A stretch of 47,211 nucleotides of DNA, from the IMG/VR virus record IMGVR_UViG_3300022902_000026, positions 1-47,211 of that record. One strand, given 5' to 3'. Shown here piece after piece: positions 2,601 to 27,623 of the stretch (position 1 is the first letter of the stretch; every line of letters starts with the position of its first letter). Below the pieces are notes generated by a model, which saw only the letters and a program-made list of their open reading frames with translations, was not told the DNA's origin and did no database searches. A program made the position numbers and the translations under genes. This DNA comes from a virus.

Positions 2601-3457
2601 CCAGAGTGTTCCCATCAAGGACAACCTATACGCCAGATGATGACCTGTGTTTTTTTGATGGACCTGGATTGTTTCCACCAGAAGTTGATGAGGTCCATGT
2701 TTCATGTACTTTCTCATGGGATAAGCCAAGAGCCGAACAATTGGCAGAAGAATGGTCAACAGTCCTTCCGGTTAAGTTGGGCGGACCTGCATACAATGAC
2801 TTCGTGCAAGAGTTTGAGCCTGGTATGTATCTTAAAAAAGGGATGACAATCACAAGCAGGGGCTGCCCTCATAAGTGCAAGTCCTGTCTTGTCCCGATTA
2901 GAGAGGGGGCGCTAAGGACAATTAAAATTAAGCAAGGTGACAGATTGCTTGACAGCAACATTCTAGCTTGCCCTGATCCTCACATTAAAGAAGTATTCAA
3001 AATGCTCGCATCCAATAAGGGGAAATTTGGGCTCCATGGCGGGTTTGATATCCGCATAATGAAAGACTGGCATGTTGGATTGCTGGCAGAACACAAAACA
3101 AAAATTGAACGCCTATATATTGCATTTGATTATGATTCAAAGCTATCACGAGAGCGGACGGTTGAAGCGATTAAGAAGATCAGGGTTGATGGCGGTCTAT
3201 CGCTAGGGCAGCTCAGGTGTTTCGTTTTGATAGGGCACGAAGGCGATACTGTTGAGGCAGCCGAGGACAGATGCCAGTTTGTTTTCGATTCAGGTGCCGT
3301 ACCATTTGCGAGTGTATATCGCGGTCCATCTGAACTTAACGTAAAAAAGAACCCAACATGGCAGGCCGTCTCATCTAGGTGGTCATGGATGCCTGGAATC
3401 TTCGGGAGAATGAAGCGCGAGGGTGTTGATATTTCAAACCAAAGGATGATGAAATGA
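2588..3457 (+). CDS. phage radical SAM protein of unknown substrate
   Basis: The 289-residue protein has CPHKCKSC (Cys93, Cys97, Cys100), the CxxxCxxC motif that holds the 4Fe-4S cluster and S-adenosylmethionine in radical SAM enzymes. It precedes a barrel-like region with LHGGFDIR, LYIAFDYD and LRCFVLIGHEGD. The first 90 residues (VHVSCTFSWD, PVKLGGPAY) look like the Rossmann-like front half of B12-type radical SAM proteins, without a clear B12-binding DxHxxG motif. It lacks features of QueE. The stop overlaps the methyltransferase start (ATGA), so a nucleic-acid substrate is possible but unproven. The gene is visibly richer in A and T than its neighbours. Confidence 0.8.
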   Translation: MSRIARVFPSRTTYTPDDDLCFFDGPGLFPPEVDEVHVSCTFSWDKPRAEQLAEEWSTVLPVKLGGPAYNDFVQEFEPGMYLKKGMTITSRGCPHKCKSCLVPIREGALRTIKIKQGDRLLDSNILACPDPHIKEVFKMLASNKGKFGLHGGFDIRIMKDWHVGLLAEHKTKIERLYIAFDYDSKLSRERTVEAIKKIRVDGGLSLGQLRCFVLIGHEGDTVEAAEDRCQFVFDSGAVPFASVYRGPSELNVKKNPTWQAVSSRWSWMPGIFGRMKREGVDISNQRMMK

Positions 3458-4386
3458 CAGATGCAATAGACCAGGTAATCACCGAAGAATATGCAATCTA
3501 TCGCGGCGACTGCGTTGAGGTAATTCAAGGTATCCCGGATGAGTCCATCGGGTATTCCATCTTCAGCCCGCCATTTGCGAGCCTATATACCTACAGCGCC
3601 AGCCCACGAGACATGGGCAATTGCTCAACTCACGACGACTTCGCGGCCCACTTCGCGCACCTTATCCCTGAGTTGTTCCGGGTTACGAAGCCGGGCAGGC
3701 TGGTCTCGTTTCATTGTATGTTGCTGCCGACGACCAAGACCAGAGACGGGTTCATTGGAATCACGGACTTCAGGGGCCAACTAATCAAGGCGTTTCAGGA
3801 TGCCGGGTTCTACTTCCATTCAGAGGTAGTCATCTGGAAGGATCCTGTTACGGCCATGCAGCGGACTAAGGCACTTGGCTTGCTTCATAAGCAGATCAAG
3901 AAAGATAGTTGTATGAGCAGACAAGGGATCCCTGATTACCTCGTGACAATGCGCAAGCCCGGCGACAACGATGAGCCAGTTGCTGGCCGGTTTCAGGATT
4001 ACGTAGGCGAAGGATATCCCGAGAAAGGCGAGGATTCCGACAGCCGCAGCATTGAGATCTGGCAGCGGTACGCATCCCCTGTCTGGTCCGATATCAACCC
4101 CAATGACACCTTGCAATACCGTAGTGCAAGGGAGCACCAGGACGAGCGCCATATCTGCCCGCTCCAGCTCCAGGTTATTCGGCGCGGTATGCAAATGTGG
4201 AGCAATCCAGGGGACACGGTTCTGAGCCCGTTCGCAGGAATCGGCAGCGAGGGATACGAATCTATCAGGGCCGGTCGGCGGTTCGTCGGGATTGAGCTTA
4301 AGGCGAGCTACTACCGGCAGATGGAACTGAACCTCGAAGCGGCCAACAAAGAGACCATGCCGCTGTTCGCTGGGGTAGATGAGTAA
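3454..4386 (+). CDS. beta-class DNA (N4/N6) methyltransferase
   Basis: The 310-residue enzyme has the catalytic SPPF motif at residues 38-41 and the SAM-binding FAGIGSEG motif at 260-267, the order of beta-class amino-methyltransferases that modify adenine N6 or cytosine N4. RDGD-like entry residues (YRGDCVEVI) and a C-terminal GRRFVGIELKASYY complete the family signature. No restriction endonuclease is adjacent, so it is an orphan enzyme, most likely protecting phage DNA or marking it. SPPF occurs in both N4-cytosine and N6-adenine enzymes, so the base cannot be decided. It is translationally coupled to the radical SAM gene. Confidence 0.9.
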   Translation: MTDAIDQVITEEYAIYRGDCVEVIQGIPDESIGYSIFSPPFASLYTYSASPRDMGNCSTHDDFAAHFAHLIPELFRVTKPGRLVSFHCMLLPTTKTRDGFIGITDFRGQLIKAFQDAGFYFHSEVVIWKDPVTAMQRTKALGLLHKQIKKDSCMSRQGIPDYLVTMRKPGDNDEPVAGRFQDYVGEGYPEKGEDSDSRSIEIWQRYASPVWSDINPNDTLQYRSAREHQDERHICPLQLQVIRRGMQMWSNPGDTVLSPFAGIGSEGYESIRAGRRFVGIELKASYYRQMELNLEAANKETMPLFAGVDE

Positions 4387-5525: not shown

Positions 5526-5599
5526 AGGGTGGTAGCTCAACTGGATAGAGCACGAGGATTTGACCCTCGCGGTTTGCGGTTCGAACCCGCATCGCCCTT
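5526..5599 (+). tRNA. tRNA-Gln(TTG)
   Basis: All four stems fold. The acceptor AGGGTGG pairs with TCGCCCT (two G-T pairs), the D stem is GCTC/GAGC, the anticodon stem is CGAGG/CCTCG, and the T stem is TGCGG/CCGCA with loop TTCGAAC. The seven-base anticodon loop at 5558-5564 reads ATTTGAC, placing anticodon TTG at 5560-5562 (glutamine, CAA/CAG). The discriminator is T and CCA is not encoded, so the 3' end must be added by the host. The T discriminator is unlike the G of Escherichia coli tRNA-Gln. Confidence 0.9.
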
Positions 5600-5628
5600 C
5601 TGATTTTAACCCACAACAGGAGCAGCAA

Positions 5629-5969: not shown

Positions 5970-6284
5970 ATGCCACAGGAACCAAAATACGCAGCACAGC
6001 CGGACGCAATCGACCGCGATAACCCGCAGCCGCAGTGGAAGCGGTGGACGTTGCCGCGACTGCTTGCGGGCCCGTGGATTGGCTGCACTGGCGCGGACCT
6101 TTCTCTGATGCATATGCCTGACGGGCTCGTCTGGTATCTCGACCACGGCACAAGGCCGGGCGACGGTGATGTTATGAAGAGGGGCAGGCGGATGCGCATT
6201 TCGGAGGAGCGGGCGTTGCTGCTGCTGGAGATGGTCGCGGCTATGCGGCGGGAAGTTGAGCAGTGGGGGGAGGTGGCAAAATGA
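5970..6284 (+). CDS. hypothetical protein, 104 aa
   Basis: GGAGG lies 8-12 bases before the ATG. The protein has a Trp/Pro-rich N-terminal half (QWKRWTLPRLLAGPWIGCTG), a strand with LVWYLDHG, and a C-terminal helix (ISEERALLLLEMVAAMRREVEQWGEV). Its stop overlaps the exonuclease start, so it belongs to the recombination operon. The 150 bases before it hold a possible GTTGAC/GTCAAC inverted repeat (5821-5846) but no clear -10 box. Function is unknown. Confidence 0.6.
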   Translation: MPQEPKYAAQPDAIDRDNPQPQWKRWTLPRLLAGPWIGCTGADLSLMHMPDGLVWYLDHGTRPGDGDVMKRGRRMRISEERALLLLEMVAAMRREVEQWGEVAK

Positions 6285-7096
6285 GCAATCCATTCAAAGA
6301 CTACTTAGACATCAAGGCAACCAACTGGAGCAGCCTCAAGCTCATGAACACGAGCCCGCTCTGCTACCGGTACTATCAGGACAACCCGATGCCGGACAAG
6401 GCAGCGTACGCGCTAGGTAGGGCAGTCCACTGTGCCGTTCTGGAGCCTAGCCGGTTCGAGTCCGACGTGGTGGTATTTGACGGACGCCGAGCCGGAAAGA
6501 AGTGGACCGAGTTCAAGGAAGCAAACGGCGACTGCGAAATTGTTAAGCCGTCTGAGATGCAGTTGATCAAGACCATGAGGGACGCGGTCCTATCCCACCC
6601 GGTGGCTAGCCTCCATTTGCAGGGCGGCATTGCAGAGACAAACCTTGAGTGGGTTGACGTTCCGACTCAACTAAAGTGCAAAGGTCGCGCGGACTACATT
6701 ACCGACCGGGTCATTGACCTGAAGACGGCGCGAGACGTGGACCCATGGAAGTTCAGCGGGGCGATTGCTTCGTATCTCTACCACGGGCAAATGGCTTTCT
6801 ATGGTGACGGCGCGGTTCTTCATGGACACGATGTTGACCTACCCCCGCTTATCGTCGCGGTCCAATCGTCTCCACCGTTTGACGTTGCCGTCTATGAGAT
6901 TGGCGCGGAGGCTTTGGAGGCGGGCAGGAACCTGTACAGGGGTCTTATTGACATGCTCAAGGGATGCATGGATGCCGACCACTGGCCAGGGTGCGCGCCG
7001 GAAGTTATTGGGGTTGAGTTGCCACAGTGGGCAGCCGGAAATGAAACCGAAACCATGCCAGCCCTAACCATGGGCGGCAAAGCGATGGAGTTTTAA
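6281..7096 (+). CDS. PD-(D/E)XK exonuclease, RecE/Cas4-like
   Basis: The 271-residue protein has the motifs of phage exodeoxyribonuclease VIII-like nucleases: GRAVHCAVLEP (His50), GRADYI (Asp138), DLKTA (Asp146, Lys148) and the QMAFY helix (about residues 170-174). Such enzymes degrade one strand from DNA ends to create single strands for annealing or recombination. The ATG at 6281 follows a GGGGGAGG and overlaps the preceding stop; an upstream GTG frame merely reads through the ribosome binding site. No RecT or Erf annealing protein is recognised next to it; the 7098 gene takes the usual partner position. Confidence 0.85.
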   Translation: MSNPFKDYLDIKATNWSSLKLMNTSPLCYRYYQDNPMPDKAAYALGRAVHCAVLEPSRFESDVVVFDGRRAGKKWTEFKEANGDCEIVKPSEMQLIKTMRDAVLSHPVASLHLQGGIAETNLEWVDVPTQLKCKGRADYITDRVIDLKTARDVDPWKFSGAIASYLYHGQMAFYGDGAVLHGHDVDLPPLIVAVQSSPPFDVAVYEIGAEALEAGRNLYRGLIDMLKGCMDADHWPGCAPEVIGVELPQWAAGNETETMPALTMGGKAMEF

Positions 7097-7824: not shown

Positions 7825-8036
7825 CCCTAAACAGCCCATACAAGAACTGGCACTACACCGCCGCCTGCCCGAAGTGCGGCAAATCCTGCGCCCTGTGCGC
7901 GCGCGGCGACGGGTACGCCTACAACTGCTCGCACGGGCGCCGGGGATGCGACTACTGGGGGCCGGCGGCGGACACGGTCAGCGAGGCGCTGGAGGCCCAC
8001 AACGAGGCGGTGCGGTGCTGGGAGGTGGCGGCATGA
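7821..8036 (+). CDS. Lar-like restriction-alleviation zinc protein
   Basis: The 71-residue protein shows CPKCGKSCALC (Cys16, 19, 23, 26), a second pair Cys36 and Cys43, then YWGPAADTVSEALEAHNEAV. The Cys-rich knuckles followed by GP and a helix of the EAxxAxN type match Lar-family proteins, named after the Rac-prophage protein that eases type I restriction. Many phage homologues have no tested function. It sits just before the DpdA/QueD genes, so an anti-restriction theme is plausible. Confidence 0.65.
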   Translation: MTLNSPYKNWHYTAACPKCGKSCALCARGDGYAYNCSHGRRGCDYWGPAADTVSEALEAHNEAVRCWEVAA

Positions 8037-8260
8037 GTTACCAGCAAGGGAACGGCCCACGGCTCAAGACCTACGCCCGCACCATGGCAGCCCTCCGCGC
8101 GCTGAAATCAACCCTGGACGGTCGCACCTGCACGGACTACCGACCGCGCACCGGACTCGACGGGGCCACCTGCCGGACGTGTGACGGGGGATGGTGGGCA
8201 CATCTCACGCGGCTGCAGCGGGTGGCGGAGTGGTTTGGGTTTTACGTGAGGCCAAAATGA
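8033..8260 (+). CDS. small hypothetical protein with CxxC, 75 aa
   Basis: It starts ATGA-coupled to the Lar-like gene and ends ATGA-coupled to the DpdA-like gene. A basic N-terminal helix (YARTMAALRALKSTLDG) is followed by CTDY and CRTCDGGWW, then a Trp/Phe-rich helix. It could be a small zinc protein. Position between Lar-like and DpdA-like genes suggests a shared operon role, but no domain is recognised. Confidence 0.55.
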   Translation: MSYQQGNGPRLKTYARTMAALRALKSTLDGRTCTDYRPRTGLDGATCRTCDGGWWAHLTRLQRVAEWFGFYVRPK

Positions 8261-8901
8261 TGGTCATGCCGAGCAACTGGGCCGCGCTAGTGGTCGGATA
8301 TTGGGCCGGTAAATATCCAGGCAGCATGGGACACCTGTACAGCCCTGGTGGGCTCAAAAAGCAACCTTATGGAGAGTGGCTCCCGTATGCGCTGGATAAC
8401 GGGGCGTGGAGCGCCCACCTGAGTGGCAAGCCGTGGGATCCGGACGCGTGGCGGAATCATCTAATGACGGCGGCTTTGTCTGGTCAGGACCCCATATGGG
8501 CCGTGGTTCCGGATGTTGTCGGGAACATGCGGCGCACGCTTGAAATGTGGAATAATTACGCGGCAGAGGTTGCCCGCTACTCGTGGCCACTGGCATTTGC
8601 AGCCCAGGATGGAATGGAGCCGTCGGACGTTCCCGATACTGCCGCCGTGGTGTTTTTGGGTGGGTCCACAAACTGGAAGCTGGCCAACATAGATAAGTGG
8701 GGTGCATCTTTTCCGGGGCGTCTACATGTTGCTCGGGTCACCACATACAAACGGCTGAGAATATGTCAGCGCGCTGGTGCAGTGAGTTGTGATGGAACTG
8801 GATGGGGTCGCGCTCGTGGTGCTCAATATGCGGACCTTCACAGATATATAAGAGAGGAGTGGGGCAATGAAAATGAAACTCTGGATCCGCCAAGAATTTG
8901 A
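8257..8901 (+). CDS. DpdA-like 7-deazaguanine transglycosylase
   Basis: The 214-residue protein carries the pattern of phage DpdA-type members of the tRNA-guanine transglycosylase superfamily: ALDNGAW (Asp49), VVPDVVGN (Asp86), AAQDGM (Asp118), VFLGGSTNWK (about 133-141), LHVARV (156-161) and SCDGTGW (Asp179). DpdA exchanges guanine in DNA for a 7-deazaguanine base such as preQ0, which shields phage DNA from restriction. It overlaps the QueD gene by 35 bases, supporting this role over a tRNA role. The catalytic Asp pair is assigned by motif position only. The ATG at 8257 is chosen for the ATGA overlap. Confidence 0.75.
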   Translation: MMVMPSNWAALVVGYWAGKYPGSMGHLYSPGGLKKQPYGEWLPYALDNGAWSAHLSGKPWDPDAWRNHLMTAALSGQDPIWAVVPDVVGNMRRTLEMWNNYAAEVARYSWPLAFAAQDGMEPSDVPDTAAVVFLGGSTNWKLANIDKWGASFPGRLHVARVTTYKRLRICQRAGAVSCDGTGWGRARGAQYADLHRYIREEWGNENETLDPPRI

Positions 8902-9223
8902 TGCAGCTCACAACCTAAAAGGAACGTTTCCGCCGGGTCACCAGTGCTGCCGCGTACACGGTCACCGCTACGAGGCAACCATTACTCTGGCCGTGGAGGA
9001 CGACGGCGAGGATGTGATGGTTGACTATCACGATATGCACGCGGGCCTTGCGCATGAATTGAAAAGGTTTGATCACTATGACCTAAACGAAGTCATGGAC
9101 AAACCGCCGACGTGTGAAAACGTAGCGCGCCTCCTGTGGTCAAGGTTGAGTATCCGCTGGCCAGAACTGGACACGGTAGAGATCCAGGAGCAGAGCAGCA
9201 CAGGGTGTGTGCTGACAAAGTGA
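8867..9223 (+). CDS. queD: QueD, 6-carboxy-tetrahydropterin synthase
   Basis: The 118-residue enzyme has FDAAHNL (His15), then Cys27 four residues before His31-Gly-His33, the Zn triad and catalytic Cys of QueD, FDHYDLN (Asp69-His70), PTCENVARLLW (Glu84) and VEIQEQ. QueD converts 7,8-dihydroneopterin triphosphate to 6-carboxy-tetrahydropterin, the second step toward preQ0. QueE, QueC and FolE are not in this window, so the phage would lean on host enzymes and boost one step. Coupling to a DpdA-like gene points to DNA modification rather than queuosine in tRNA. AGAGAGGAG precedes the ATG. Confidence 0.9.
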   Translation: MKMKLWIRQEFDAAHNLKGTFPPGHQCCRVHGHRYEATITLAVEDDGEDVMVDYHDMHAGLAHELKRFDHYDLNEVMDKPPTCENVARLLWSRLSIRWPELDTVEIQEQSSTGCVLTK

Positions 9224-19480: not shown

Positions 19481-20446
19481 TCATGCCTCCAAAACAAGGG
19501 CAACGGAATTCACAAACCGCTGCCAAGTGTATCGGCTCCGGACTAGTTCGCGATTCTTTGCGGCTAAATCCTGGAGCGTTGTTTCGTCGGCCCTTTGAAG
19601 TGACGCTACCAGTTCCGCGTCTGCTTTGCAATCCCTTTGCAGCGTGTATCCGTGGAAATCTCCGTCAACGTACCCGCAACCGGTGGATAGGACCGGGATT
19701 AGGCCCCATGACATGGCTTCTAGGACTGTGGTGGGGTTCGCGTCGTTGGTCCCGGGCATGATGAGGTAATCGTAGGTGGACGCAATGGCGTGCCCTTCTT
19801 TACCGGCCAGGTCGCGAAATCCATACCCGTGAGTGCCTTCAACGTGCCCGTGCCCAAGGTGGCCAAACGCGGGAACCGAACGTTTCGAGTCCACGGACTT
19901 GATCAAGTCCTCTAGATATTTCGTCCCCTTCTGCTGAACCGTGCACCCAATGTACAGGAACCGGCGCTCACCAGGCGGGTTATAGGACGGTTTTAGGGGC
20001 GGGAAGTATTGCGGATCGATGGCCATGTCCAGGCGGGAAGAATGCACCGTCTGCGTATCCTCTGACCACGTATTAAAGCGTGGAGACTCAGGCGTGTCCC
20101 AAAACCACGGCTTTCCGCAGATAGCAAAATGATGATCAACCTTCCCCCACACATACTCCTGGTCCCGCCTATACTCCTCGCTCCCATTCCAAGGCGCGAT
20201 GCTCACCACCCTCTTCCACGGCGCGACCATGCTCGTTCTAAAGCACTTGCCTGGCTCCGGGTGCGGGTGCCCGATCAGGATATCGTCCGGGCTGTCAGGG
20301 TAGATGCACAGTTCGTCCGCCCAGTCGTAGCACCGGACTTTGTGCCCGCGCTTGCGTAGGCCGGCTGCCAGGTTGTAGCCGATGGACCATGGGGATTTGG
20401 TGCGGCGGTTTCGGTCGTGTGGGTATACTAGGTGGATGGTTGTCAT
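19481..20446 (-). CDS. GT4-like glycosyltransferase (GT-B)
   Basis: From MTTIHLVYPH (ATG at 20446) the protein is 321 residues. The N-terminal Rossmann half is followed by RRFLYIGCTVQQKGTKYLEDL and by NPTTVLEAMSWGLIPVLSTG, the E-x7-E-like signature of GT4-type retaining glycosyltransferases. These transfer a sugar from a nucleotide donor to a protein or glycan acceptor in the cytoplasm. The start is preceded by AAAGGGCCAACC, a motif repeated before other island genes. The acceptor is not known; position next to fibre genes favours virion proteins. Confidence 0.8.
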   Translation of the reverse strand: MTTIHLVYPHDRNRRTKSPWSIGYNLAAGLRKRGHKVRCYDWADELCIYPDSPDDILIGHPHPEPGKCFRTSMVAPWKRVVSIAPWNGSEEYRRDQEYVWGKVDHHFAICGKPWFWDTPESPRFNTWSEDTQTVHSSRLDMAIDPQYFPPLKPSYNPPGERRFLYIGCTVQQKGTKYLEDLIKSVDSKRSVPAFGHLGHGHVEGTHGYGFRDLAGKEGHAIASTYDYLIMPGTNDANPTTVLEAMSWGLIPVLSTGCGYVDGDFHGYTLQRDCKADAELVASLQRADETTLQDLAAKNRELVRSRYTWQRFVNSVALVLEA

Positions 20447-20459
20447 GGTTGGCCCTTTG

Positions 20460-20642
20460 CTAGTAGTGAATATTGATGAAGATTGGCCTAGACTTCGGAA
20501 CCCGCCCAAGTTTTAAGCGCAGTCTCATCCACTCCCAAAACCCAATCCGACCATCCTCCAGCATTTCGAATATGGACAGTCTCGCTCTAGCCCATTCAAT
20601 TATGCGAGGATCCACTGCCTTTCTTGCTTCGGCTCCAGTCAT
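20460..20642 (-). CDS. small hypothetical protein, 60 aa
   Basis: GGAGAAGGGCT precedes the ATG. The helical protein reads EARKAVDPRIIEWARARLS, EMLEDGRIGFWEWMRLRLKLG, and ends with a hydrophobic strand (IFINIHY). It lies between two glycosyltransferase genes. No family is recognised; it may be an adapter for one of them. Confidence 0.5.
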   Translation of the reverse strand: MTGAEARKAVDPRIIEWARARLSIFEMLEDGRIGFWEWMRLRLKLGRVPKSRPIFINIHY

Positions 20643-20656
20643 AGCCCTTCTCCTAT

Positions 20657-21511
20657 CTAAAGTGAATCGATTATTTCCTGAGCCCGGTGCCGGTACGTGT
20701 GGTGAGCCAGAACGTGGGCGCGACCTGCTGCGGCAACGCGGATGGGTGAGAATTCATCCGTCCTGGTCAAGTGGCTGAGACACACCTTCAACTTGGTCCC
20801 GGCATCAAACTCGTTCTCGTAAGTGAGCAGGTGCTTATTAGGTTCAAAATGCCGCCGCACCGATGCGCTGTCAGGACACAGAAGTACGGTTCCACAGCAC
20901 AAAGTTTCCCAATACCGCATCACCAGCAACCCGTCCCCGCCACTGTTCGTGTGATGGACATGGACCTGCAGCCCCGCCACGGCATCCGCGTACTCTTGCC
21001 CGGTCTCGGTCTGAATTACCTCCACCCCTACCGACTCCGCGAACGCCACCCGCTCCGGGAACGGTGACCCGATTATAGCAGCACCGATTTTCTTACCGGT
21101 GGTGGGCTTAAACCGGGTTTCGTCGGCGGCGTAGGGGAGGTACTTGGACCCAGCAAAAAACTTGAGCATGTCCGGGTTCGCAAGGAAGAGTTGGTCCGGT
21201 TTCATCATCTCGACCAGTTTTTTTGTCAGGTCCATGTGGATGGCCGTATCAAAATCCCACATCGCTAGCGGGACACCGGGATAGTTTTCCCTCAACTCCA
21301 GATACTGCCTCTCGCCATCGCCACACTCCATGAACACGATCAAGTCAGGCGTCCACGCCGGGTCAGGCGCGATCTGCTTCCCCGTCTGGTACGTGGTCCC
21401 GTACGGGTGCGCGGTGTGGCCCATGCGGCGTAGGGCTCTGATTAGAGCTGCTCCGGTCTCCCATCCTTTTCCGGGTCCGTTGTTCTGGCGATAGGTTACT
21501 AGGATTTTCAT
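20657..21511 (-). CDS. CgeB-like glycosyltransferase (GT-B)
   Basis: The 284-residue protein has an N-terminal Rossmann half with PDLIVFMECGDGER and LAMWDFDTAIH, then VHVHHTNSGGDGLLVMRYWETLCCGTVLLCPD in the C-terminal half. This is the layout of CgeB-like transferases, where RxxE-x4-G-x-x lies in the donor site. The ATG is preceded by AAAGGGCCAAT. Other members act on spore coats or cell-surface and phage proteins. The substrate here is unknown. Confidence 0.75.
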   Translation of the reverse strand: MKILVTYRQNNGPGKGWETGAALIRALRRMGHTAHPYGTTYQTGKQIAPDPAWTPDLIVFMECGDGERQYLELRENYPGVPLAMWDFDTAIHMDLTKKLVEMMKPDQLFLANPDMLKFFAGSKYLPYAADETRFKPTTGKKIGAAIIGSPFPERVAFAESVGVEVIQTETGQEYADAVAGLQVHVHHTNSGGDGLLVMRYWETLCCGTVLLCPDSASVRRHFEPNKHLLTYENEFDAGTKLKVCLSHLTRTDEFSPIRVAAAGRAHVLAHHTYRHRAQEIIDSL

Positions 21512-21544
21512 ATTGGCCCTTTGGTGCTTCTTGTGCTCGCCCTG

Positions 21545-22045
21545 CTACTTAACCACGACCCGGAACTCGCCCGCAAACGGAATCGGCTTGCCCATGCGAA
21601 AGTTCGGCCCCAACTGCTCCATCAGTTCCTGGACCGAGTACCGGAGCCATCCATCTTCCTCTGTCTTGCGAAATACATGTACCGGGACCGGGATGCCTCC
21701 ACGGGTGCCAGACGGCAGCCCGCTCCTGAACTGGTCGTGGGTCGCTTGCAGGATTCCGAGGCCGTCTCGGGTCGGCTGGATGTGGATGTCGTCGGTCATG
21801 GATACGGTTAGGTATTTTGGCGTGGTGGGCTCAGGGACAGTCACCTCTTCTGCAGACTCTGCCAACACTTTCGCGCAACCCTCAGATACCGTCTCCTTGG
21901 TGAGTACCCATGGCGTAATTCTTTGTTCAATATCCTTGGCCTTCTCCTTCACCGGCTCGCCAATCTGGACCGTCGCCACGACCTCCACCGCTTCCTGCTC
22001 CGGTGGCTTCTTCTGGTCCTGCTTATCTTTCTTGGGGGGTCTCAT
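21545..22045 (-). CDS. hypothetical protein in the glycosylation island, 166 aa
   Basis: The N-terminal 45 residues are Lys/Glu/Pro-rich and look disordered (KKDKQDQKKPPEQEAVE), followed by a mixed alpha/beta domain (YLTVSMTDDIHIQPTRDG, PVPVHVFRKTEEDGWLRYSV). The start overlaps the end of the glycosyltransferase gene at 22042 by 4 bases. No motif for a glycosyltransferase or methyltransferase is present. It could be an acceptor or scaffold protein of the island. Confidence 0.5.
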   Translation of the reverse strand: MRPPKKDKQDQKKPPEQEAVEVVATVQIGEPVKEKAKDIEQRITPWVLTKETVSEGCAKVLAESAEEVTVPEPTTPKYLTVSMTDDIHIQPTRDGLGILQATHDQFRSGLPSGTRGGIPVPVHVFRKTEEDGWLRYSVQELMEQLGPNFRMGKPIPFAGEFRVVVK

Positions 22046-23073
22046 GGTGTTGTCTCCTGGTTCAGAACATCAGACCACGCCGCAATTGCCCTCGCCTTCT
22101 TGGCTTTGTGCGCGGACTTCATTATGTTTGTGATTGATTCTCTGTCGTAGTTATCCAACTGGGTGCTCAAATGGTCAAGGCTGTTGAACTGCATCACTCC
22201 TGGCATGTTCCCAATGTCATACCAATCGGCAAGGTCAATCCACTCATCAGGAACGGGCCCATTTAGATTGTCGCAGAACTCAACCTCATTTAGTACATGT
22301 CGCCCTGTCTGCTTCCACTTCTTAAGCAGTGCCGGCGACGGTACAAACATCGGAATGCCCATGGCGTAGTGCTCAAACGCTGACATAATCGAGATGTTGT
22401 AAGGCAGGTGGATGATGCCTTCCATGTGGGCAAGGTCTGTCCTATCGTACCGGTTCCATACCGAAAACGAGCGGTCAATCTTAACGTGCGTGAACTCGTC
22501 TCGCAACCCGTCGTTGTTTCTATCCCACAGCACCATCTTTTCTGCGCTGCCATCGCACCGAACGCCTTCAAGATAACTGCAAATGGATGGAATGAATGTC
22601 CACTCACCACCGCAGAACGTCTCGCAGTATTTCTTGTCAAATAGGTTGTTCGCGATGAACTTGATTTGCCCTGACCTGTAGCCGGACATTAGGCGGTCAT
22701 TGAGCCACGCCAGACGCTCCGGGTTTGCCTGCTCGCCACTCCCACACGGGTAGTCATAACGGGTGCAGGCGATGGTGTAAATCGGCTTATCGAACTTCTC
22801 GAACAGGGCAGCGAACGCGGGCGGGTACGAGTGGATGAACCCGTCGTAGCCGCTCAACTCGTCCTTGTATCTGGCGTGGAACCCGTCACACATGCCCTGG
22901 TCAATGTGCAGCCAATTGCCCTGGTTAATAATATCTGTCGTGGACGGCTGCTCATTGTTGACCCAAGTGTGGCCAGACATGCAGCACGAATCCACAGTGT
23001 GCCCAATCTCTGGCAGCAGAGTTTTTAGGTCGTGGATGATGCTAATGTGCATGTCTATGTTGAAGAGCTTCAC
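22042..23073 (-). CDS. GT-B-type glycosyltransferase, divergent
   Basis: The 343-residue protein begins with GTG (KLFNIDMHISIIHD) after AGGG. It reads as two Rossmann-like halves; the second contains FSVWNRYDRTDLAHM and the signature HLPYNISIMSAFEHYAMGIPMFVPSP, close to the donor-binding region of GT-B enzymes. Conserved Cys residues (SICSYLEGVRCDG) are unusual for the class. It is translationally coupled to the gene at 21545. The sugar and acceptor are unknown. Confidence 0.65.
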   Translation of the reverse strand: MKLFNIDMHISIIHDLKTLLPEIGHTVDSCCMSGHTWVNNEQPSTTDIINQGNWLHIDQGMCDGFHARYKDELSGYDGFIHSYPPAFAALFEKFDKPIYTIACTRYDYPCGSGEQANPERLAWLNDRLMSGYRSGQIKFIANNLFDKKYCETFCGGEWTFIPSICSYLEGVRCDGSAEKMVLWDRNNDGLRDEFTHVKIDRSFSVWNRYDRTDLAHMEGIIHLPYNISIMSAFEHYAMGIPMFVPSPALLKKWKQTGRHVLNEVEFCDNLNGPVPDEWIDLADWYDIGNMPGVMQFNSLDHLSTQLDNYDRESITNIMKSAHKAKKARAIAAWSDVLNQETTP

Positions 23074-23077
23074 GCGG

Positions 23078-23821
23078 CTACCCTATCTCGTACATCCCAG
23101 CGTGCTCAGAAAAGTAACCGTTGATCGCATCAATAGCCGCAGCCGGGTCCAATTCCAGCCAGTGTCCCACGTTGGCATTCCACGGGAACCACTTCCTCCA
23201 GTCCTTGTTCCGGTAGAACAACCCGTAAGCATCGTCCGCTGAGTAAGCCTTGAGACCTGGGTTCATGTCCTTCCTGATGGCGAAAGCATTGTTATATGTC
23301 AGGTCAACGAGGTCGTACCCGAACTGGTCGAGGATGTCTTTCAGTTTTGACAGGCTCATACCAAAGAAGTGGGAGGCGTCCCATTTGTATCCTTCCGAGT
23401 ACTTAACGGCGAACCGAATCGGAGGCGGGATCTTCTCGTTAATCTCGGCCATGATTACGGTCGGGGAATACGATTTTAGAATAGCCTCCAACACGAAGTA
23501 ATCGTACCCGTCAATGTCCAGGTCAAGAAACGTCGGGTCAGTCCTGTCCGTCACGCTCTTGATCGTGTCTACGACATTGTGCGGCGTGATAGCCTTTCGG
23601 ATTAGGCTTGCAGACTGAGGAAGATGCGCATCCATCTTGTCCGCTTTGGAGTCGTCACATTCGCAGAAGATTGCAACGTCTGCACTTGATATAATGTCAA
23701 GTGGAATATTTGTCTCGTAACTGCATCCGATATCTATTACAAACCGGTCCCGGTCGAACATGCCAAGGTATGACCTAACGGCCTGATCCGTCAGTCTTGT
23801 ATTGTCTGGCATCACTTGCAT
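23078..23821 (-). CDS. FkbM-like methyltransferase
   Basis: The 247-residue protein has FVIDIGCSYETN (SAM-binding motif I), VAIFCECDDSKAD (acidic strand end) and TFLDLDIDGYDYFVLEAIL, the D-x-D-x-x-G block typical of FkbM-type methyltransferases. The family O-methylates sugars and small molecules. It overlaps the methyltransferase gene upstream by 10 bases. Two possible starts, ATG at 23821 and 23812, differ by three residues. Sugar methylation in the island is the simplest role. Confidence 0.7.
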   Translation of the reverse strand: MQVMPDNTRLTDQAVRSYLGMFDRDRFVIDIGCSYETNIPLDIISSADVAIFCECDDSKADKMDAHLPQSASLIRKAITPHNVVDTIKSVTDRTDPTFLDLDIDGYDYFVLEAILKSYSPTVIMAEINEKIPPPIRFAVKYSEGYKWDASHFFGMSLSKLKDILDQFGYDLVDLTYNNAFAIRKDMNPGLKAYSADDAYGLFYRNKDWRKWFPWNANVGHWLELDPAAAIDAINGYFSEHAGMYEIG

Positions 23822-24345
23822 AGTCCTTTGCTGAGGAAATCCATGTGGTCTTGTCTTGCCCAGATGGTGGTATGCGGGCCTCCATCTTCAGGCACATAAG
23901 TAGCAGCAGCCATTCCCATCAGGCTGGCAGCTGGATATGTTGCAGTCCAGTTGAAGGATTGTGTCTCTGTGTCATGGCATACGATAATCGGAGCAACGCA
24001 GAACCCGTACAGCATCTGAGCGTGTCGGCTGTCCCCATGACCATCAACAAACACTAGGTCATACTGTCTATTAGGGAACCGCTTTGGAAGTTCAACCATC
24101 CACCGGCACGGGCCTAAAGCGATTACCTTATCCCAGTGTGGGCAGTCTCCAACGCTCTCGGACACTCGCTCCAGCCATGCCAGGTCGTTAGACTCAACCG
24201 ATACAAGTGACTTGCACTTCTCTGCGAACAGAGGCGTGGACCCCCACCCTATCCCGAACTCTAGAACGTTGCTGATCGTGCCCGTATCAAGGATCATTTC
24301 GAGAACGGGTCTGTGGGAGTGAACGTTTTTTATGTCAAGAGACAC
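23812..24345 (-). CDS. class I SAM-dependent methyltransferase
   Basis: The 177-residue protein starts at GTG with GGAGG 9 bases upstream. It shows VLEFGIGWGSTPLFAE (motif I), LVSVESNDLAWL (acidic motif II) and YDLVFVDGHGDSRHAQML (catalytic strand), the core of a compact class I methyltransferase. The motif set resembles small O-methyltransferases of polysaccharide clusters. It overlaps genes on both sides. Confidence 0.7.
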   Translation of the reverse strand: MSLDIKNVHSHRPVLEMILDTGTISNVLEFGIGWGSTPLFAEKCKSLVSVESNDLAWLERVSESVGDCPHWDKVIALGPCRWMVELPKRFPNRQYDLVFVDGHGDSRHAQMLYGFCVAPIIVCHDTETQSFNWTATYPAASLMGMAAATYVPEDGGPHTTIWARQDHMDFLSKGLCK

Positions 24346-25162
24346 GGATTGAATCCTCCATTCTTACAAGCCAGCGATACATATATAGGCAATCGTAATC
24401 GAACCCGTTTACCTTCTCTGCGTACAACTCATCCGTGAGCATGCCGGGGTCGAAGTCCTCCCACGAATCCAGCACCACAGCCGGGAAGTATGGAAGTGAA
24501 TCCCAAAGCAGGGACCTAGTAACCACCGGCACAGAACGCAGGTAAAGCGCATCCCAAGCCCTGTGGGTGTCTATTCCGTTACCGTTGGGCGCAAGCGTGA
24601 ATCGTGACGTGGCTATGTCGCACAAGTAGGCCTCATAACTCTTCCACGGCTCAAGTTTTGACCCTGACGCGGACAGGCACGCCATTCTCTCCACCGCGTT
24701 GGTAGCCACGTTGAAGTTGGCCACCACGTTTCGCCACTTGCCAAGGTGTGCGTCCATGACTTTTCTCATGGTATAGCAGCCCTGTTTTGGCGTGCCCTCG
24801 TTCTTGATGCCTATTGGGATTGGTGTAATTCGCGGGTCTTCTTGGGTGACGTTGATCGCGAACCAGTGACTGATCGGATACCTGTCTAGCAGCGCGGCCC
24901 GTGCTTCATCTATCGGGTAGTCGCTGTTTCCTGTGACGAGAACGAATGAATCCGTAATCTCGCTTGAGTGTCTGCAAAATTTCTCTACATAGTCGGTCTT
25001 GCAGTATCTCCAATCGGTTGGCGAGTGCGGATTGTCTGTCGGTTCTCCGTAGTTTACAGACACGCCGCATATATTAGAGAACGTGTTGCACGTCAGATAT
25101 GGCCAGCCATAAGGAAATGTCCCGTGCCATGTATATGGTATGGCGTTGATTGACGGGCTCAT
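24335..25162 (-). CDS. exostosin-like glycosyltransferase (GT47-type)
   Basis: The 275-residue protein has SRFTLAPNGNGIDTHRAWDALYLRSVPVVTRS, the highly characteristic donor-site region of exostosin-like and related GT-B enzymes, with PYFPAVVLDSWEDFD behind it. The N-terminal half (DSFVLVTGNSDYPID) forms the first Rossmann domain. Related phage and bacterial proteins act in surface glycan assembly. It overlaps both neighbours by a few bases. Confidence 0.75.
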   Translation of the reverse strand: MSPSINAIPYTWHGTFPYGWPYLTCNTFSNICGVSVNYGEPTDNPHSPTDWRYCKTDYVEKFCRHSSEITDSFVLVTGNSDYPIDEARAALLDRYPISHWFAINVTQEDPRITPIPIGIKNEGTPKQGCYTMRKVMDAHLGKWRNVVANFNVATNAVERMACLSASGSKLEPWKSYEAYLCDIATSRFTLAPNGNGIDTHRAWDALYLRSVPVVTRSLLWDSLPYFPAVVLDSWEDFDPGMLTDELYAEKVNGFDYDCLYMYRWLVRMEDSIRVS

Positions 25163-25788
25163 TTTTTCTCACCAATCAGCAAAAAGTCAACGTAATAATC
25201 CCGGTCAAGTTCAACTTCATAAAGTGGATCAATGTACGTAAACTGACCTCGCATCCACTCCAGTGTAGGCATAATTGGATGCAGCCCGCTCCCGACTGTT
25301 CCAACCGGGAACGTAGGCTCGCCAAAGACCAGAATACCGCCAGGCTTCAGCGACTCGATCAAGTTAGACACGACCTTTGCCGCGTCCTGACAATGCGGAA
25401 GGACGTTGATGCAAATGGCCATGTCATACTCACCGGGCCTGATGAAGTCCTCACCACGCGCCGTGACCAGTTCCGGATCCTTGAACCATTCAACCGGCTT
25501 ATTGTATGAGCAGTACGGATGGGATAGGTACTTGTCAAGAAGCGGGTCAACTAGCGTGAACGATTCCATTTCAGTGTGCTGGGATATGATCTTGCTCTGC
25601 GTGAACGGGCCGCACCCAATCTCCAGCACCTTGTCATATTTGCGGTCTGGGATGGCTTCGTAGTTGTTGAACTCTTCCAGGTAATATTTAGAGCGGTCAT
25701 CATACGAAGATGTGTGTTTGACCATCCAGCAGTGCTCTTCCCCTGCCTGCGCTTCTTCCCATTGGGCTTGTGTGGCCAGGACCGTCAC
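25159..25788 (-). CDS. class I SAM-dependent methyltransferase
   Basis: From the GTG at 25788 the protein is 209 residues. VLEIGCGPFTQSKII (motif I), FTLVDPL (motif II), YDMAICINVLPHCQD (motif IV) and LKPGGILVFGEP (post IV) are textbook for the Methyltransf_11/25 fold. The GTG overlaps the stop of the 25788 gene by one base, and a GAGGTGG stands 8 bases upstream. The PLYEVELDRDYYVDFLLIG tail is typical of sugar or small-molecule O-methyltransferases. Confidence 0.8.
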   Translation of the reverse strand: MTVLATQAQWEEAQAGEEHCWMVKHTSSYDDRSKYYLEEFNNYEAIPDRKYDKVLEIGCGPFTQSKIISQHTEMESFTLVDPLLDKYLSHPYCSYNKPVEWFKDPELVTARGEDFIRPGEYDMAICINVLPHCQDAAKVVSNLIESLKPGGILVFGEPTFPVGTVGSGLHPIMPTLEWMRGQFTYIDPLYEVELDRDYYVDFLLIGEKK

Positions 25789-27623
25789 TACTTCACCACC
25801 TCGCCCCAAACCCCATCCGGAAAACCAGCCGCCTTCCGAGTCAAGAACAACCGCTCTCCATGCTCCCCATTGTACTGAGAATAACTACGCATCTGAGTCT
25901 CGTCCCGTTCCGCCCCCTGCCAGTCATGCTTGAACACGATGTCAGGCGCATCCACAAACACCCCGTCCAGAATCGCCTTCTGCCCCAAGTCGTCGTCACA
26001 GAACAGGGAGATATAACCCGGATACCACATCCCGCCCACCTTCTCAGCAAAGGCACGGGTCAGGATCGCGATAGTGGGCAGCCATCCCTTTTTGTCTGCG
26101 TTCACTCCCGGGGGCGTTCCATCGTTGACGTGGATCAGCGCGGGCTTGGTCACGTCCTGGATCTTGTCCAGGATAAGGAGGTCCCAATCCTGCGGGGGCG
26201 TTACGTCGTCGTGGACCTGGACTAGGACTTGGCCGGTGCTGACCCACGCGGCGCGGTTGTAGGCGTCCACGTTGCCGCGATTGTCTAGCCCAATGCGAAC
26301 CTGTGCCTGTACATTGTCAAATAGTTGGCTTGGTCTTGGCGCGGAAGTCCCTGGCCTATTTGTTGGGTCGTCATCGTCAATGCTGAAAATATACTCCAAC
26401 GTCACCTCGCCGCTAGCCATCTCAACCCACTTGTCATGAGCAGCCAACGCCATCTCTGGCCTGCCCCGGGTCGCGTGCAGCAAACTAATCTTGATCTCGC
26501 TCAAATCCACCGCTCCACCGCCATGGTCGCCCCGTGGAACAGCCGCAGGCTCCAGACCCTGCCCTGATGGCGGAACTGGTGCCGGGGCTGCTACGGGCTG
26601 CTGTGGGGCCGCGTCCTTGTCCACCTCGTACTTGTACTGTCCCCAGTGCCCCGTCTTTGGCCGCGTTGCCAAATAGGACACGTATCCAAGTCGCCGCCCA
26701 CGCTCGCAGAACGCCCAGTCCTCAGAGTTAACGATCAGGTCCCCTGGTGCATTCGGGTGCAGGGCCAGGTTAGGCATGAAGATGGGGACGTATCCAGGGG
26801 CCGGGATCCTGCCGAGGCACTCCCACTTGAGCATGGTTTCCCACACGTCCTCGACCACGTCCCGGTGGTATGCCGTCATACCGGATCCGACCACGGGAGA
26901 AGAGAACGCCCCGTCCTGCCCGATTGGAGTTGTGATGGCATCGCCGAACATGGATGCGATGCCTTGACCTATGACCTTTTTTGAAATGATGGCACCGACA
27001 GTCCCGCGCGTTTCGGCGGCAAGACGGCACAGGTGCAATGGGTCACCCTCATATCCGGTCTCATGGCTGGCGTTGACCCACTCGATATCGTGGTCAATCA
27101 TCAGGAGCACTTCATTATCCGATTCAAGGAACTGTTTCGCGACAGTGGCCCGGGTCCGGTCAATGAGCGCGTCATCTCCCGGGGTCATGGCGGTAACCGG
27201 CCACACGTTCGGGCTGAACATCTTTGAGACGTCCACGCCTTTGCCGGCCAGGTGCCGAACGGCAGCAGCTCCAGCCGCGCGCTCAGAGAAAAAGGCCATC
27301 ATCTGGTTACTGAGCGCGTGAGTCTGTTTGATAATGCCGCCGTACCCAAACAGGGCGTAGGTTGTGGCCGGTCCACCGAAGTCGCCCCACTTCGCCCGCA
27401 TCGCAGCGAAGTCTACCTTGACCGGCGCCTTGATCGGCGGCTTTGGCTCGGCCTCGTTCGGCATGATGACGATTTCTTTTGACGACGGACGGACCTTTAA
27501 ATCTTCCGCTAGTTTCTTGGCCTCTTCCACATCAGGGAACGCCCACTCTTTCGGTGACATCCACGCGCCTGTCTTCTGCAGCTTCCACACACGCCATCCC
27601 ATCGGGGCCGTTTGATCGGTCAT
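25788..27623 (-). CDS. two-domain GT-A glycosyltransferase
   Basis: The 611-residue protein joins two GT-A domains. Domain 1 (about residues 85-335) has MIDHDIEW (DxD at 177-179) and SEDWAFCERGRRLGY (300-314), as in GT2-type enzymes. A Pro/Ala-rich linker (340-370) leads to domain 2 (about 375-600) with FSIDDDDP (416-419), QVHDDVTPP (471-473) and FCDDDLGQ (543-545). A small N-terminal domain of 70 residues precedes them. Two active sites in one chain suggest a linked two-step sugar addition. It is the largest gene of the island and heads the coupled chain. Confidence 0.75.
   Translation of the reverse strand: MTDQTAPMGWRVWKLQKTGAWMSPKEWAFPDVEEAKKLAEDLKVRPSSKEIVIMPNEAEPKPPIKAPVKVDFAAMRAKWGDFGGPATTYALFGYGGIIKQTHALSNQMMAFFSERAAGAAAVRHLAGKGVDVSKMFSPNVWPVTAMTPGDDALIDRTRATVAKQFLESDNEVLLMIDHDIEWVNASHETGYEGDPLHLCRLAAETRGTVGAIISKKVIGQGIASMFGDAITTPIGQDGAFSSPVVGSGMTAYHRDVVEDVWETMLKWECLGRIPAPGYVPIFMPNLALHPNAPGDLIVNSEDWAFCERGRRLGYVSYLATRPKTGHWGQYKYEVDKDAAPQQPVAAPAPVPPSGQGLEPAAVPRGDHGGGAVDLSEIKISLLHATRGRPEMALAAHDKWVEMASGEVTLEYIFSIDDDDPTNRPGTSAPRPSQLFDNVQAQVRIGLDNRGNVDAYNRAAWVSTGQVLVQVHDDVTPPQDWDLLILDKIQDVTKPALIHVNDGTPPGVNADKKGWLPTIAILTRAFAEKVGGMWYPGYISLFCDDDLGQKAILDGVFVDAPDIVFKHDWQGAERDETQMRSYSQYNGEHGERLFLTRKAAGFPDGVWGEVVK

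Follow-up and report, generated by a model that had tools for sequence, protein, structure and literature searches.

A short TGT-fold protein encoded with QueD in a viral sequence, a putative 7-deazaguanine transglycosylase of a family linked to preQ0 genes

The IMG/VR virus sequence IMGVR_UViG_3300022902_000026 (47,211 bases, possibly incomplete, and analysed at its full length as the window) carries a queD gene overlapped by the gene of a short protein that a preliminary description had called a DpdA-type transglycosylase. The locus raises the question of whether a phage that makes one enzyme of preQ0 synthesis also encodes an enzyme that exchanges guanine for a 7-deazaguanine, and in which nucleic acid it would do so. 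The 214-aa protein is named T here, and the genes and signals of the locus are as follows.

8033..8260, plus strand: small ORF upstream of T, 75 aa, without a Pfam family
8248..8251, plus strand: Shine-Dalgarno sequence GAGG for the T gene
8257..8901, plus strand: T, short protein with the tRNA-guanine transglycosylase (TGT) fold, phrog_15826 family; putative 7-deazaguanine transglycosylase
8855..8859, plus strand: Shine-Dalgarno sequence AGGAG for queD, within the T gene
8867..9223, plus strand: QueD (6-carboxytetrahydropterin synthase), 118 aa, complete active site

The ORF of T runs from an ATG at 8257 to a stop at 8901, this start being favoured over the mechanical ORF start at 8191 because relatives share the N-terminus M-x-V-M-P-S-N. 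The stop of the 75-aa ORF overlaps the start of T in an ATGA, the two lying probably in one operon, and the T and queD ORFs are both present as had been described, with an overlap of 35 bases and a good Shine-Dalgarno sequence before each start. The pairing of T with queD is not due to chance, since T and queD stand side by side in numerous viral contigs that are unrelated. The QueD protein matches Pfam PTPS (E = 1.4e-21) and NCBIfam QueD (E = 1.3e-17; 64 bits, below the model's 89-bit cut-off), and when it is aligned to E. coli QueD, Cys27, the zinc histidines H15/H31/H33, D69, H70 and E108 are all kept, so that the Cys, three zinc His, Asp-His and Glu of the PTPS/QueD family are present and the intact active site first claimed for it is borne out. 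Pfam models gave no match to QueC, QueF, TGT, Vut_1 or FolE in this 47-kb and possibly incomplete record, and local HMMs gave none to QueC, QueE, FolE, DpdA or a transporter, the search for QueE being made with a small local HMM only. The reported absence of FolE, QueE and QueC therefore agrees with these searches (Pfam for FolE and QueC; local HMMs for all three).

Direct searches of T against Pfam and NCBIfam gave no match, a profile search found no TGT among PDB sequences, and when hhalign was given E. coli TGT alone, just an irrelevant stretch was paired with the T family, so the assignment of T to the TGTs draws on structure, PHROG and the DpdA1 profile. An AlphaFold model of T (pLDDT 93.1, pTM 0.90), based on a family alignment of 51 sequences, retrieved TGTs as 50 of its 50 best entries in VIA-align, with Z up to 14.9 and 200 residues aligned, and the top TGT entries have preQ1 or preQ0 bound. 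Foldseek likewise gave a TGT as the best match (E 6.7e-6), other TIM barrels ranking close behind, and in BFVD it matched the model to phage queuine transglycosylases and to the DpdA2 of phage nt-1 (R9TGF0, E 9.6e-5). T matched phrog_15826 ('unknown function') with E 6e-30 and phrog_887 ('queuine tRNA-ribosyltransferase') with E 0.3; phrog_15826 was matched by 51/51 family members when scanned singly, and phrog_887 by 24/51 (best E 1.4e-7). Alignment of the T family to 31 DpdA1 proteins by hhalign gave P = 3.3e-5 and paired LDNG with LDSG, PDVVGN with LDVIGD and SCDGTGW with STDSSSW; when a T-family HMM was run over all collected ORFs, every borderline match (E 0.003-0.09) was a DpdA1. T is thus, as modelled, a compact single-domain protein of the TGT superfamily, in line with the transglycosylase identity originally proposed for it. 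Domains resembling T also occur inside longer ORFs or proteins (L003, at about 7959-8690; BFVD A0A0F7L9Z1 and A0A6J5LU57), the BFVD proteins having 499 and 877 aa and one of them bearing an ART-PolyVal name, which suggests that fused forms exist.

The motifs ALDNGAW, VVPDVV and CDGTGW, to which the preliminary description had pointed, were all found in T, and comparison of the family members gives the following putative active-site positions.

8395..8397, plus strand: Asp47 codon (ALDNGAW), invariant in 51/51; probable equivalent of Z. mobilis TGT Asp102
8512..8514, plus strand: Asp86 codon (VPDVVGN), invariant in 51/51; probable equivalent of TGT Asp156 (base recognition)
8605..8607, plus strand: Gln117 codon (AAQDGM), invariant in 51/51; probable equivalent of TGT Gln203; His (HxG) in DpdA1
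8659..8664, plus strand: Gly135-Gly136 codons (FLGGST), invariant; probable equivalent of TGT AVGGL (Gly230 region)
8791..8793, plus strand: Asp179 codon (SCDGTGW), in all members; probable nucleophile, TGT Asp280

The order of these motifs is that of D102, D156, Q203, G230 and D280 in Z. mobilis TGT, and the residue equivalences between T and TGT are probable in view of this order, of the fold and of the profile alignment with DpdA1. The conservation of Asp179 in 51/51 members counts L003 after correction of a one-residue misalignment. The motifs LDxG, D-V-hydrophobic-G, GG and CD/SD..W are shared by DpdA1 and the T family, whereas the DpdA1 alignment has a conserved HxG at the motif that corresponds to Gln117 (QDG) in T; a conserved histidine has been reported at position 196 of 9g DpdA (PMC6884629).

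Whether T should be called a DpdA is a separate matter. Phage DpdA1 (9g/CAjan/Rosebush type; PHROG 887) belongs, like T, to the TGT superfamily and occurs with preQ0 genes in phages, but it has 282-319 aa in the set compared, against 196-244 aa (median 212) in the T family, its sequence match to T is only at the edge of significance, and it is found together with a T-family protein in five loci. The DpdA2 of Vibrio phage nt-1 (YP_008125322), also a TGT-superfamily protein of a phage, encoded beside preQ0 genes and matched by Foldseek in BFVD, has 464 aa, and hhalign gave no sequence match between it and the T family. T is one third shorter than DpdA1 and less than half as long as DpdA2, and the proposal that the T family is DpdA2 was ruled out by length (about 212 vs 464 aa) and by the absent sequence match. 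Bacterial Tgt (Z. mobilis / E. coli) shares with T the (beta/alpha)8 fold, with 200 residues aligned at Z 14.9, and the order of the putative motifs, but has 375 aa, a zinc site and extra elements that are missing from T, and 11% identity. Neither hallmark of a canonical tRNA TGT (PF01702 match, zinc motif CxCxxC) was found in T, and the zinc motif is missing from the T family and from the DpdA1 set alike.

In a tree that compared the T family with DpdA1, nt-1 DpdA2 and E. coli TGT, and whose deeper order is unsafe on account of long branches, the T proteins formed one clade of their own (support 100/99) on a long branch, and HMMs of the T family and DpdA1 matched each other with E 0.003 at best. 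Judged by sequence, T lies outside DpdA1 and DpdA2, the two DpdA groups compared. DpdA3 and DpdA4, from phages and archaeal viruses, are further subfamilies said to have been described by Cui et al. in 2023. The preliminary description had made the DpdA name depend on phylogeny against the DpdA subfamilies, and by its own rule the label would be dropped; the 'DpdA-type' claim is not supported as it was worded, but the TGT fold, the invariant residues and the gene neighbourhood still point to 7-deazaguanine base exchange by T. The resemblance to TGT and DpdA has already been noticed in existing actinophage annotation, as the GenBank name 'DpdA-like tRNA-guanine transglycosylase' is carried by Arthrobacter and Mycobacterium phage members, and the proteins so named in Aoka (gp40), Sonali (gp81) and GreaseLightnin (gp55) belong to the T family and are 30-33% identical to T. 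They differ in company, the Aoka and GreaseLightnin homologues lying beside a Vut_1/YhhQ-type transporter and that of Sonali with a complete preQ0 set and DpdA, whereas T has QueD alone. No experiment behind the 'DpdA-like' naming was found, nor, in the literature examined, an earlier description of a distinct compact family strongly linked to preQ0 genes.

At least 561 relatives of T are present in IMG/VR. Eighty IMG/VR loci were retained and, after removal of near-duplicates, 51 (50 plus this record) were profiled for QueD, QueC, QueE, FolE, a Vut_1-type transporter and DpdA. Within 2 kb of T there were 42 such genes, in 31/51 loci, compared to none in the 535 kb farther out, which upholds the coupling to preQ0 synthesis that had been proposed; no recognised 7-deazaguanine gene lay within 2 kb of T in 20/51 loci. 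The que and transporter genes near T are all on its strand and mostly overlap it by a few bases, and they are found both upstream and downstream of T in varying sets, which points to repeated independent coupling. Pfam confirmed QueD in 20/48 T-bearing records and QueC in 8/48, and a search of 30 T-bearing records gave no FolE, so that the pathways are as a rule partial. Among isolate phages the family is carried by 24/50,697 records and is therefore mostly one of uncultured viruses. Relatives of T also lie on contigs binned as Acidobacteria, Armatimonadetes, cyanobacteria, Flavobacteriales and Deltaproteobacteria (L175-L182), possibly hosts or prophages, and two of them adjoin QueC or QueE.

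A Vut_1 transporter gene stands immediately upstream of T in three actinophages (ReqiPine5, Aoka and GreaseLightnin), and the two transporters tested (Aoka and GreaseLightnin) match the queuosine-precursor-transporter model below its cut-off. The Vut_1 (queuosine-precursor-type) genes that adjoin T are:

L009, 5430-5987
L010, 5086-5613
L011, 5291-5824
L092, 8487-8966

Transporter and T may possibly form an import-and-insert pair. In Rhodococcus phage ReqiPine5 (L011 6535-7452) a gene of the PAPS-reductase family lies directly downstream of T.

Our data make it rather likely that T exchanges guanine for a 7-deazaguanine, most likely in phage DNA, with host preQ0 boosted by the phage QueD. Asp179 would attack C1' of the target guanosine, guanine would leave, and its place would be taken by preQ0 or another 7-deazaguanine derived from it, held by Asp86, Gln117 and the GG loop; the substrate would most likely be phage DNA, giving a modified genome that may resist host restriction. 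No sequence feature distinguishes DNA from tRNA as the substrate of T, and DNA is the one that we infer. Since the phage makes QueD alone, preQ0 would come from the host queuosine pathway, of which QueD would boost one step, and relatives would instead supply different single steps (QueC, QueE, FolE) or an importer of the queuosine-precursor type. Such host supply with one step boosted had been suggested at the outset, and published precedents lend it support by analogy: E. coli expressing 9g dpdA alone had dPreQ0 in plasmid DNA (PMC6884629), Salmonella phage 7-11, with DpdA only, had a little dADG in its DNA (PMC6884629), and phage MED16, which has DpdA without reported preQ0 genes, had dADG (PMC8306585). 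Mycobacteria possess none of the queuosine genes (PMC6884629), and for this reason import and insertion are plausible for mycobacteriophages. YhhQ was reported to show no correlation with any phage group (PMC6884629), and the YhhQ-type transporter adjoining T is a new lead.

T could instead be a transglycosylase of tRNA or another RNA that, together with QueD, increases or changes the queuosine-type modification of tRNA, whether of the host or of the phage, in the course of infection. Its nearest solved folds are tRNA TGTs, its putative base pocket has Gln117 as in TGT where DpdA1 has His, and the record encodes a tRNA-Gln (anticodon ttg, 5526-5600), the sole tRNA called in it by ARAGORN; tRNA-Gln, however, is not a queuosine tRNA, most members' hosts probably have a TGT already, and T has neither the CxCxxC zinc motif nor the extra length of TGT. 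A tRNA role has been proposed for phages with preQ0 genes but without DpdA (PMC6884629), which counts in favour of RNA as the target, but mycobacteriophages pair T with a transporter although mycobacteria are without queuosine genes (PMC6884629), and we consider this explanation unlikely.

The five loci in which T and a canonical DpdA occur together (SHIN8, Sonali, R29Z, L064 and L130) bear on two further explanations. In SHIN8, Sonali and R29Z both stand with a complete or near-complete preQ0 set, and in L130 the T gene comes immediately after DpdA1, while in R29Z the two genes are close to each other. A search through the whole of 48 T-bearing records gave a DpdA1 match in one (L130) and missed the divergent DpdA of L064, which was picked up in the ORF HMM scan. 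T is usually the sole TGT-like gene found and in a minority acts beside DpdA. The five loci with both speak against T as a general replacement of DpdA, and a separate role of T is therefore possible. One would be that of a hydrolase or salvage enzyme that frees 7-deazaguanine (or guanine) from nucleic acid or nucleosides for the base pool, with no insertion, as the presence of T beside preQ0 sets and canonical DpdA in the five loci suggests and as the transporter-linked cases would also allow. The residues expected for base exchange are kept across the T family, however, and in most loci T is the sole TGT-like gene found by the preQ0 genes, which would serve no purpose if no enzyme inserted their product; salvage as its function is, in our estimation, improbable.

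T might also have no catalysis of its own and serve a transglycosylase, be it a phage DpdA or the TGT of the host, as its partner or specificity subunit, in the way that QTRT2 serves QTRT1. The position of T next to DpdA in L130 and close to it in R29Z and the working of TGTs as dimers would favour this. The putative catalytic Asp179 and Asp47 are nevertheless present in 51/51 members, unlike in a dead subunit, and most T-bearing records show no DpdA, so that we regard such a role as very unlikely. That T is a TIM-barrel enzyme with no part in base exchange, placed beside queD by coincidence, is hardly credible, for even though the barrel is a common fold, with aldolases, epimerases and TrpA barrels just behind TGT in Foldseek and 20/51 loci without a nearby que gene, the confinement of que genes to within 2 kb of T, the matches of members to phage queuine transglycosylases and the TGT identity of all top VIA entries have largely refuted it already.

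Base exchange in phage DNA by T would have consequences beyond this record. A PHROG listed as unknown, present on at least 561 contigs of mostly uncultured viruses, gains a concrete and testable putative function, and viruses of the T family probably protect their DNA by a 7-deazaguanine swap. If true, 7-deazaguanine DNA modification would extend to many phages whose sets, of one or two pathway genes, seem incomplete, and it may account for some phages with a stray queD, queC or queE. The TGT-like barrel of about 200 aa would in addition be a simple scaffold on which to study the choice of DNA over tRNA by base-exchange enzymes. More tentatively, and with some doubt on our part, phrog_15826 could be a separate class of minimal nucleic-acid guanine transglycosylases of about 200 aa outside the described DpdA subfamilies, able to act beside DpdA in the same phage on another target motif or with another base, and forming in actinophages a two-gene import-and-insert system in hosts without a queuosine pathway.

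Several minor observations concern the family and the window. In Escherichia phages SHIN8 and phiG7 (L004 11938-12530) the T gene is broken into two reading frames that overlap ('hypothetical proteins'), beside DNA polymerase, which would be a pseudogene or a frameshift. A conserved gene of 80 aa lies directly or closely behind T in six loci (L058 10606-10848, L078 10594-10836, L085 10697-10939, L088, L084 and L067); its reading as a miniature QueF (spacing CPNG..D, E, YQE) was given up, as Pfam and PDB profiles gave no confirmation. Within the window, an N6/N4 DNA methylase at 3454-4386 (Pfam E 2e-16) is a second possible DNA-modification gene of the same phage, and the region of early genes encodes a DUF3799 PDDEXK-like nuclease at 6281-7096 (Pfam E 1.3e-28). 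On the minus strand, a series of glycosyltransferase-like and methyltransferase-like genes at 19481-25809, amid structural genes, perhaps serves capsid or tail glycosylation.
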